From positions 1 through 43,511 of the forward strand of contig JASHQC010000017.1 in assembly GCA_030037735.1 (NCBI GenBank): a stretch of 43,511 nt of DNA, read 5' to 3'. The notes under the pieces were generated by a model, which did not search any database, had not been told where the DNA came from, and worked only from the letters and a program-made list of their open reading frames with translations. Below, in pieces: positions 12,512 through 32,649 of the stretch. How positions within the stretch are numbered: the stretch's first letter is position 1; each line of letters starts with the position of its first letter. Source of the stretch: Thermoplasmata archaeon. Lineage in GTDB: Archaea > Thermoplasmatota > Thermoplasmata > Lutacidiplasmatales > UBA184. The position numbers were made by a program, and so were the translations under genes.

Positions 12512-13398
12512 CCCCCCGGTCGGCGTCCCGCCACCACCAGCAACTCGCAGGTAACGCCGTCGGACGCTGGGGCCATGAAGCTCCGGGAAGCCTGCGCCAC
12601 CTCCCGCCAAGCCGCCTCTTGAATTTCCGGCGGCAGATCCGACACGATGTCCCCGAAAATATCTCGGTCGAATCGGATCAACTCCTCGAGAGAAGACGGC
12701 CGCAGGGGACAGGAAATCGCTCGCGCCTCTACATCGGTGAATCCGGCGCGCCGAAGCATCGACTCAAGCAAGCCTGGTGCGGCCAAACTGAACGGGCCCG
12801 GACCAGACGGCATCGAGACCGGAACTGCCCTGGGGCGGTCGCTTGTCTCCGGGTGACTCCAACGGGAAAGGATGGAGAAGGGAATGGTCACGAATCCGTT
12901 GCGGTCGGGCTCCGAGAAGACCGTAAGTCCTACCCAACCCCCCGGCCGAAGGACGCGGTATACCCGCTCTAAGGCTCCGGCAGGGTCCGCGAAGAACATG
13001 AACGCCTGACGGCAAGCCACTGCGTCCATCGAAGCCCACGCCACATCCGGTGCCTCTCCGTCCATCACGCGGACCCTCACGTTCGACAGGCCCTCGGCCC
13101 GCGCGTTGCGCGCCGCGAGCTTCACCATATTGGGGCCAGCATCGGTCGCTAGAATCCGTCCCTTCGGTCCGACAGCCCTGGCCAAATGGAGAGTCAGTCC
13201 TCCGCTCCCCGCGGCGAGCTCGAGGACCCGGGCTCCGGGCTTCAGCCGGACCATTTCAATGAGAACCGCGGTCGCCCGAGCAAGCCAGACGTCGACCAGC
13301 GGTGCCCACGAGTTCCACTTCTCGGCGATGGCGTCCCACCCCTCCGTGATTTGCTGCTTACGGACCACCGCGTCGGAGGGACCTTCCTCGTCGGACAT
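12508..13398 (-). CDS. Class I SAM-dependent methyltransferase (UbiE/Methyltransf_11 type)
   Basis: A 296-residue protein from ATG 13398. It shows the Rossmann-fold methyltransferase motifs in order: motif I ARVLELAAGSGGLTLHLA, an acidic residue after strand 2 in ILATDAGPNMV, motif II around VRVMDGEAPDVAWASMDAVAC, and the post-motif III helix LERVYRVLRPGGWVGLTVF. This arrangement is typical of UbiE/COQ5-like methyltransferases that act on small molecules such as quinones or lipids. The N-terminal part (QQITEGWDAIAEKWNSWAP) resembles the substrate lid of that group. The substrate is unknown and no quinone biosynthesis gene lies nearby. Confidence 0.85.
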   Translation of the reverse strand: MSDEEGPSDAVVRKQQITEGWDAIAEKWNSWAPLVDVWLARATAVLIEMVRLKPGARVLELAAGSGGLTLHLARAVGPKGRILATDAGPNMVKLAARNARAEGLSNVRVRVMDGEAPDVAWASMDAVACRQAFMFFADPAGALERVYRVLRPGGWVGLTVFSEPDRNGFVTIPFSILSRWSHPETSDRPRAVPVSMPSGPGPFSLAAPGLLESMLRRAGFTDVEARAISCPLRPSSLEELIRFDRDIFGDIVSDLPPEIQEAAWREVAQASRSFMAPASDGVTCELLVVAGRRPGG

Positions 13399-31221: not shown

Positions 31222-31437
31222 GTGAATCCGCGGGAGCGGGAGCTGCTCACCGGCATGGGGAATTGCTACGAGGCGTGTCATGCCGACTTCGAGGGGACGA
31301 TTGAGATGGTTGCGGAGAACCGGCACCGGACCCCGGAGGACGTGATCGATTCCTTGCGCAGTATGCACAAGCAGTACTCGGACGACCCCGAGTACCAGCG
31401 CCTTCGAGCGCGCCTTCCGCGCGATTTTCCGTGCTGA
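31222..31437 (+). CDS. Small CxxxC protein, first gene of a three-gene operon
   Basis: A 71-residue helical protein, GTG start. The first part contains CYEAC (residues 15-19), and the last residue is also Cys. The sequence is rich in charged residues (EMVAENRHRTPEDVIDSLRSMHKQY). No family recognised. It is followed 20 bases later by the haem-oxygenase-fold enzyme gene, so it probably works with it; the cysteines could bind metal or handle redox. Confidence 0.55.
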   Translation: MNPRERELLTGMGNCYEACHADFEGTIEMVAENRHRTPEDVIDSLRSMHKQYSDDPEYQRLRARLPRDFPC

Positions 31438-31457
31438 GCTCAGAATAGAGGGAGCAC

Positions 31458-32354
31458 ATGACCAAGTGTCCTGCGTGTCTTGCGCGGTTCGGGCCGGGGG
31501 ATTATGGCGCCCTGAGCCACCACTTGGCGGAGGGCGCCGACGCGAGTGACTCGCCGCACGTCCGCTGGCTCAATCAAAACATCACTCGAAAGAAGACGGC
31601 CCCCGCCGACCTCGACGGACCGCTTCGAACGTTCTTCGGCCTGGGCTCCTCTCCTCTGTCCCGTTGGATCAAGAAGCGCTTCATCGCGAAGTTCTACGGA
31701 AATCCCCCTCACCCGTTCCCCATGGCCCTCCAACATCCGTCGCGCGCTACCCTTCTGGGGTACGTCTTCGAGCACCAGCACTTCCTCCGCCAATGGGTGC
31801 GTTCCTGTGCGTACATCATGGCGCGCACCGACGAGCCTGAGGTGGCCCGGTATGAGCTCGACAACCTCAATACCGAGTTCGGGGGGTTCGGAACGCCGTC
31901 GCCCTCCCACTACGAACTGCTGCTGCAGATGGGCGAGAGTCTAGGAATACCCCGGGCCGAAGTGCTCCGGACCCCTCCCCTCCCTTCCACGGCATTCGCG
32001 GTCCGGGAATGGAACCGTATCGCCACCGAGGAGCACTGGGTCGAGGCGATGGCCGCCATGCACAGTCTCGAGCTGATCGCGAACCGCGACCTGGTTAAGG
32101 AGGGCGCGTCGATCCGGTACTTTGAGCCCGATATTCTTTCCGGCTCGGAGGTCACGAAGGCGACTCAGGCGTTCCTTAGGGAGGGTTACGAGGCCGACGT
32201 CGGACATTCCGACGAGGCTCTCGCCCTCGTCGATCAGTTCGCCACCTCCGTGGGCCGCGTGGAGGACGTACAATCCACCTTTCTCCGCTCGGCGGACTTA
32301 TTCGACGATTACCTGATCGCCCGGCTCGAGCGGGGAGCACAGTTTGAACGTTAA
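31458..32354 (+). CDS. C2H2 zinc finger fused to haem-oxygenase-fold (PqqC/CADD-like) metalloenzyme
   Basis: A 298-residue protein. It starts with a likely zinc finger: Cys4-x2-Cys7 and His21/His22/His34. Residues about 80-290 form a helical TenA/PqqC-like domain with candidate metal ligands: Glu105/His106/His108 in FEHQHF, Glu140, His151/Glu153 in HYELL, His202/Glu205 in MHSLE, and His250 in ADVGHSDEALALVD. This pattern is that of haem-oxygenase-like diiron oxygenases (CADD, UndA, SznF) and iron-containing redox enzymes. Those use O2 to make or modify small molecules or cofactors. The zinc finger fusion is unusual and may bring nucleic acid or a partner protein. The stop overlaps the next gene start by 11 bases. 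Confidence 0.75.
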   Translation: MTKCPACLARFGPGDYGALSHHLAEGADASDSPHVRWLNQNITRKKTAPADLDGPLRTFFGLGSSPLSRWIKKRFIAKFYGNPPHPFPMALQHPSRATLLGYVFEHQHFLRQWVRSCAYIMARTDEPEVARYELDNLNTEFGGFGTPSPSHYELLLQMGESLGIPRAEVLRTPPLPSTAFAVREWNRIATEEHWVEAMAAMHSLELIANRDLVKEGASIRYFEPDILSGSEVTKATQAFLREGYEADVGHSDEALALVDQFATSVGRVEDVQSTFLRSADLFDDYLIARLERGAQFER

Positions 32355-32649
32355 CTACACGGCCTGCGCGATCTGCGACTCGAGCTGGGGGAATCTCTGG
32401 GAAGAAGTGGAAGGGACCCGACTGTTCTTCTGCTGCGATATTTGCCGGATCCAGTTTCGAAACCTGGTGGGCCGCATCAAGTCCGAGACAGGGTGGCCGA
32501 CGATCGACTCCCTGGTTATCTCTGGGGACCGTCGGGGGAGGATCTGCCACGCCACGCAAGGGACGGCGTCGTACCGGTGCTTCGTGGCGTTCAACGCTGA
32601 GGGGGTCATCCGCACCTTCCGCACGGAGGCCTCGGCCATCCCGTCGTGA
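32344..32649 (+). CDS. Ta0938-like zinc-binding protein
   Basis: A 101-residue protein, TTG start inside the upstream gene's last codons, so the two are translationally coupled. It resembles the Thermoplasma acidophilum protein Ta0938, a small zinc-binding protein of unknown function whose structure was solved by structural genomics: CAICDSSWGNLWEEVEG (Cys8, Cys11) followed by LFFCCDICRIQFRN (Cys30, Cys31, Cys34) and then GWPTIDSL. FxCCxxC also looks like a TRASH/YHS metal-binding knuckle. Coupling to a diiron-type oxygenase gene suggests metal supply or subunit function. The Ta0938 match is from memory of the family, not from a search. Confidence 0.75.
   Translation: MNVNYTACAICDSSWGNLWEEVEGTRLFFCCDICRIQFRNLVGRIKSETGWPTIDSLVISGDRRGRICHATQGTASYRCFVAFNAEGVIRTFRTEASAIPS

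Follow-up and report, generated by a model that had tools for sequence, protein, structure and literature searches.

Several groups of proteins share the haem-oxygenase-like helical fold, e.g., PqqC, TenA and the haem-oxygenase-like dimetal oxidases or HDOs (CADD, UndA, BesC, HrmI, and AetD). A 3H/3C ligand rule is described for the HDOs in a 2026 review, which covers bacteria only and mentions neither archaea nor zinc (PMC13108848). The closest known counterparts of the enzyme treated here are SSO2700 of Sulfolobus solfataricus, known as crystal structure 4lqx, and Ta0939 of Thermoplasma, which belong to the same family with its N-terminal zinc finger included. No function was found for these proteins in the literature searched, where SSO2700 is unmentioned and Ta0938 and Ta0939 (PQQC) are listed only in one paper of 2007, whose table of proteins specific to archaeal groups gives them neighbouring locus tags (PMC1852104). 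Neither the pairing nor a function of either family was found there, and Ta0938 is not discussed alongside the enzyme as its partner. Ta0938 (2fqh, PF11494) has been known as an orphan, and the pairing is already latent in public data, in which both families have solved structures.

In Sulfolobus, TRASH proteins act as metallochaperones; one of them, MerH of S. solfataricus, belongs to the operon for mercuric reductase (PMC4187130, PMC3600143). Ta0938 resembles the TRASH metallochaperones MerH and CopM in being small, in carrying a CxxC...FCCxxC motif and in being encoded beside a gene for metal or redox handling. It differs from them in falling below the TRASH cut-offs of Pfam, in having an additional C-terminal beta domain and in lacking a conserved adjacent metal-resistance gene. 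This study analysed an archaeal locus in which a Ta0938 protein is encoded together with a finger-bearing enzyme of this fold.

Gene layout and family assignment

The window, i.e., the whole stretch of DNA analysed (43,511 nucleotides), is contig C37 of an archaeal assembly (1.77 Mb, 85% complete). Three genes lie in a row on the + strand at 31222-32649, with the following features:

31222..31437, + strand, small CxxxC protein, 71 aa, GTG start, no family match
31458..32354, + strand, zinc-finger + TENA/PqqC/CADD-fold enzyme, 298 aa, ATG start, PF16293 + PF03070 + PF14518
31467..31559, + strand, finger ligands C4, C7, H22, and H34 of the enzyme, invariant in 70/70 finger-bearing distinct relatives
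31770..32207, + strand, candidate metal-site residues of the enzyme (E140, H151, E205, D247, and H250 from the CADD alignment, plus E105, H106, E133, N136, and H202), invariant in 74/74, with G243 (71/74) at CADD H174
32344..32649, + strand, Ta0938 protein, 101 aa, TTG start, PF11494, 2fqh
32365..32445, + strand, TRASH-like CxxC...FCCxxC module of Ta0938 (C8, C11, C30, C31, and C34)

The first gene and the enzyme gene are separated by 20 bases, and the end of the enzyme gene, stop included, overlaps the Ta0938 gene by 11 bases, in exact agreement with the coordinates of the first-pass annotation. The element GGGAGCACA is present ahead of the enzyme start and again ahead of the TTG start of Ta0938, which fits coupled translation. 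The operon is flanked by a divergent citrate synthase gene upstream and a convergent membrane protein gene downstream.

The enzyme matches zf-C2H2_9 (PF16293; 5.4e-11, 42.7 bits, curated cut-off 29), TENA_THI-4 (PF03070; 3.2e-32), and Haem_oxygenas_2 (PF14518; 3.8e-13). Its nearest solved structure is 4lqx (1e-91), which spans both the finger and the enzyme domain; SSO2700 is 49% identical to the enzyme and superimposes on its AlphaFold model (pLDDT 93.5) with a TM of 0.9. A Foldseek search with this model returned the haem-oxygenase-like helical fold, with 4lqx followed by CADD (8va9, 4e-6) and PqqC, and then by BesC (6e-5), HrmI (2e-4) and UndA (5e-4). The Pfam and Foldseek matches agree with the earlier description of a C2H2-like motif fused to a PqqC/CADD-like helical enzyme. 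Besides the 70 finger-bearing relatives, four further distinct relatives lack the finger.

The third protein matches PF11494 at 1.8e-28 (99.2 bits, curated cut-off 27), and the nearest solved structure is that of Ta0938 itself (2fqh, 7e-13). The five cysteines noted in the first reading (C8, C11, C30, C31, and C34) are, like W15, G16, and F29, invariant in 74 of 74 distinct relatives, and two more (C68 and C79) are less conserved. The AlphaFold model of Ta0938 has a pLDDT of 92.2; when it was searched with Foldseek (m24554d90886f), no significant PDB match was obtained and 2fqh was absent among the 50 matches listed, so the deposited NMR structure may differ from the model. In a profile comparison, Ta0938 aligned with small archaeal TRASH proteins at 97.2% (hhalign), a comparison that is not fully independent because these proteins were sub-threshold matches of the Ta0938 model; one of them exceeds Pfam's TRASH and FCS cut-offs. 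The Ta0938 protein of Metallosphaera matches TRASH PF24273 at 7.5e-5 (23.2 bits), below the cut-off of 27. By profile similarity, Ta0938 is related to TRASH domains without being a filed member, and the likeness lies in its N-terminal half. This similarity suggests that Ta0938 may bind zinc or donate metal. Many genomes in the class to which G294 and a Thaumarchaeota MAG belong (L179-L196 except L184 and L194) encode a tiny protein with the motif FFCCxGCRKIF, which is YHS/TRASH-like by eye and sub-threshold to the Ta0938 model.

The 71-aa protein encoded by the first gene carries the CxxxC motif reported for it (C15 and C19), of which C19 is invariant in four aligned relatives, and gave no match in Pfam or other family models. 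Six loci, spread over at least two phyla, have its gene directly upstream of the enzyme gene, namely, the window, G219, G414, G367 (the latter two from the order of Metallosphaera), G688, and G294, where the copy is frameshifted. A clear copy was found in only 2 of 293 Thermoplasmatota genomes. From this distribution, the small protein is a real and probably ancestral operon component that most lineages have lost. In G219, which belongs to the family of the window, a decayed operon lies behind an intact small gene (L138:3080-3958); a single open frame fuses two enzyme segments (residues 2-126 and 147-196) with residues 58-95 of Ta0938, its C-terminal part, the ligands and cysteines are gone, and the fusion is possibly an assembly artefact.

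Linkage of the enzyme and Ta0938

The first-pass annotation suggested that the operon may reveal a function for the orphan Ta0938 family, such as metal donor or subunit, a proposal that would fall if homologues elsewhere were not linked to the enzyme. Among 293 Thermoplasmatota genomes, 21 have a Ta0938 gene over the cut-off, and the enzyme gene is directly upstream on the same strand in all 21. The same holds for the order of Metallosphaera (Sulfolobales; 17/17 genomes over the cut-off, among 147), for a third archaeal class, that of G294 (3/3 genomes in which Ta0938 is intact), and for a scan of named genomes with one peptide pattern (84,980 species), in which Ta0938 was enzyme-linked in 51/51 loci, including those of Thermoplasma, Ferroplasma, Metallosphaera, and one Thaumarchaeota MAG. 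Weak matches of the Ta0938 model in other genomes are TRASH/YHS-type proteins and not Ta0938. The sole unlinked Ta0938 is a duplicate (L128), carried by a genome of the order of Metallosphaera that also has a linked one. Since the arrangement recurs at every genuine Ta0938 locus bar this duplicate, it is far beyond chance, and this near-absolute linkage supports Ta0938 as a partner of the enzyme. In G349, two near-identical Ta0938 copies were seen 7.7 kb apart (L143:5239-5499 and 12917-13195); only one follows the enzyme gene, and from the other the first Cys region is missing.

Most pairs have overlapping or almost abutting genes. Over the 74 distinct pairs that are intact, enzyme distances correlate with Ta0938 distances (r=0.73; permutation maximum 0.19), a correlation to which shared species history contributes. 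The enzyme and Ta0938 genes are inherited together, and the archaea that carry them, from at least two phyla, are mostly aerobic.

Two kinds of variants bear on which part of the enzyme Ta0938 goes with. A paralogue in G142, G151, G171, and G210, probably the product of a single evolutionary event, has kept the finger and the fold and has lost the ligand set; no Ta0938 accompanies it, the place being taken by a small protein that is unrelated and has no Cys motif, and G171 and G210 have no Ta0938 anywhere in the genome. The enzymes of G040, G260, L073, and L074 have no finger and have kept both the ligands and Ta0938. Ta0938 therefore goes with the metal site and not with the finger. The small partner of the paralogue is a conserved protein of about 90 aa with the motif YRLNFxxxKxCG and no family, whose gene overlaps or lies near that of the paralogue (L139-L142), so that the two form a second orphan pair. 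A common origin of this protein and Ta0938 is not supported (hhalign 0.4%).

Candidate metal site and genomic context

Alignment with CADD places E140, H151, E205, D247, and H250 of the enzyme at CADD E81, H88, E142, D178, and H181, and these five are invariant in all 74 distinct relatives, counted over the intact enzyme/Ta0938 pairs. Together with H174, these CADD residues are the metal ligands of that enzyme. The H174 position is occupied by G243 (Gly in 71/74), and because of this replacement the family fails the canonical 3H/3C test: five of the six ligands are present and the sixth is Gly. With this position taken by Gly, a canonical diiron site, and with it a canonical diiron oxygenase, is less than certain; another invariant histidine (H202 or H106) may stand in for CADD H174. 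These two belong to a second invariant set (E105, H106, E133, N136, and H202; 74/74), which brings the invariant polar residues to ten in all. The enzyme accordingly shares the fold and five of six ligands with the HDOs, and differs from them in the Gly, the extra invariant His and Glu residues, the N-terminal zinc finger, and the obligate Ta0938 partner.

In the order of Metallosphaera, a haem-copper oxidase gene is present in 17/17 carriers of the pair vs 31/130 non-carriers; the Thermoplasmatota figures are 18/21 vs 116/272. The three Thermoplasmatota carriers that lack it all belong to one genus (g13), and G349 and G376 have a single divergent oxidase match each. This association fits an O2-using enzyme, with the lineages not being independent and the comparison confounded by phylogeny.

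Beyond the pair, and the small gene in six loci, no neighbour conserved across lineages was found. Clade-specific neighbours, as judged by eye, are SHMT/GcvT/PdxT-like genes, a polyprenyl synthase with a UbiX-like gene, thiolase-like and glucoamylase-like genes, and, in the window, citrate synthase. In one Thermoplasmata clade (L025-L027, L031, L032, L069, and L070) the polyprenyl synthase-like gene, joined in five loci by the UbiX-like gene, lies about 1 kb downstream of the pair, both by eye. In G367, a Rieske gene (L147:8268-8618) directly precedes the small gene, enzyme and Ta0938 on the same strand; at L157, a related gene is located downstream and runs the other way.

Two candidate functions were weighed and are not favoured. 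CADD acts as a self-sacrificing pABA synthase, with Tyr27 and Lys152 as the sacrificial residues; the enzyme scores 27.6 bits against TIGR04305 (cut-off 200), the region of CADD Tyr27 falls outside the aligned part, and such a function is unsupported as the family has no invariant Lys. A core role in caldariellaquinone synthesis is disfavoured because several oxidase-rich genomes of the Sulfolobales order lack the pair, the enzyme being absent from G317, G361, G379, G385, G403, and G321.

Possible roles of Ta0938

The explanation preferred here, to which we give about an even chance, is that the enzyme is a variant HDO-fold metalloenzyme, which probably uses O2, and that Ta0938 is a TRASH-type protein dedicated to delivering its metal or assembling its cofactor. 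The cysteine site of Ta0938 would hold a metal ion (Fe, Zn, Mn, or Cu), and Ta0938 would dock on the enzyme and load or assemble a labile metal centre, or remain bound as an accessory subunit. Metal loading is proposed by analogy with MerH, the TRASH metallochaperone of the mercury operon. Docking or folding would probably be aided by the N-terminal finger and by the CxxxC protein, and the loaded enzyme would then oxidise a small molecule. Counting against this explanation, no metallochaperone requirement is known to us for characterised HDOs.

A more specific form of it is tentative and, in our estimate, rather doubtful: in a hitherto unrecognised metalloenzyme system, an oxidase of the HDO fold, whose ligand site is rearranged to five plus one and has to be loaded by Ta0938 as its own TRASH-type metallochaperone, may carry out an O2-dependent step specific to thermoacidophilic archaea. 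One speculative example of such a step is the tailoring of sulfur-bearing respiratory quinones, such as the caldariellaquinone of Sulfolobus or the MTK-7 of Thermoplasma. Methylthioquinones are made by the same taxa, and MTK-7 is a minor quinone of Thermoplasma under anaerobic conditions (PMC10821996).

Alternatively, Ta0938 may be an electron donor with a rubredoxin-like Fe(Cys)4 centre, which would return the dimetal site to its reduced state so that the enzyme can turn over repeatedly. The cysteines of CxxC...CxxC type, the obligate partnership, the reducing equivalents that HDO chemistry needs, and the Rieske gene just upstream in G367 are all consistent with such a role; however, the sequence affinity of Ta0938 is with metal-handling domains of the TRASH/YHS type rather than with rubredoxins, and no Rieske gene is conserved in this upstream position at the other loci, so that we regard a donor role as unlikely. 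It is similarly improbable that Ta0938 is a structural subunit, with a structural zinc only, that shapes the active site or binds substrate within an obligate hetero-oligomer. Co-inheritance, gene overlap and correlated divergence are typical of stable complexes, and the C-terminal beta part of Ta0938 is kept in nearly all members, yet SSO2700 was crystallised alone with a complete fold (4lqx), and the ligand-less paralogue without Ta0938 suggests a tie to the metal site. Least of all do we expect a hydrolase like TenA, or a PqqC-like enzyme that needs no metal, in an operon serving thiamine salvage or a comparable pathway: among the Pfam matches of enzymatic type, that to TENA_THI-4/PQQC is the strongest, and the overall fold is common to PqqC and TenA, but TenA uses a catalytic Cys where this catalytic domain has no invariant one, and the enzyme has five invariant CADD-type ligands and a far better sequence match to CADD (1e-8) than to PqqC (0.075).

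Through the linkage, two orphans, the structural-genomics protein Ta0938 (2fqh) and the crystal structure of SSO2700 (4lqx), become parts of a single system that can be tested, here also tied to TRASH-like domains, for which the ligand-less and finger-less variants are ready natural controls. If the preferred explanation of a metalloenzyme with a dedicated metal-handling partner is true, this archaeal HDO branch would show how notoriously labile metal sites are assembled.
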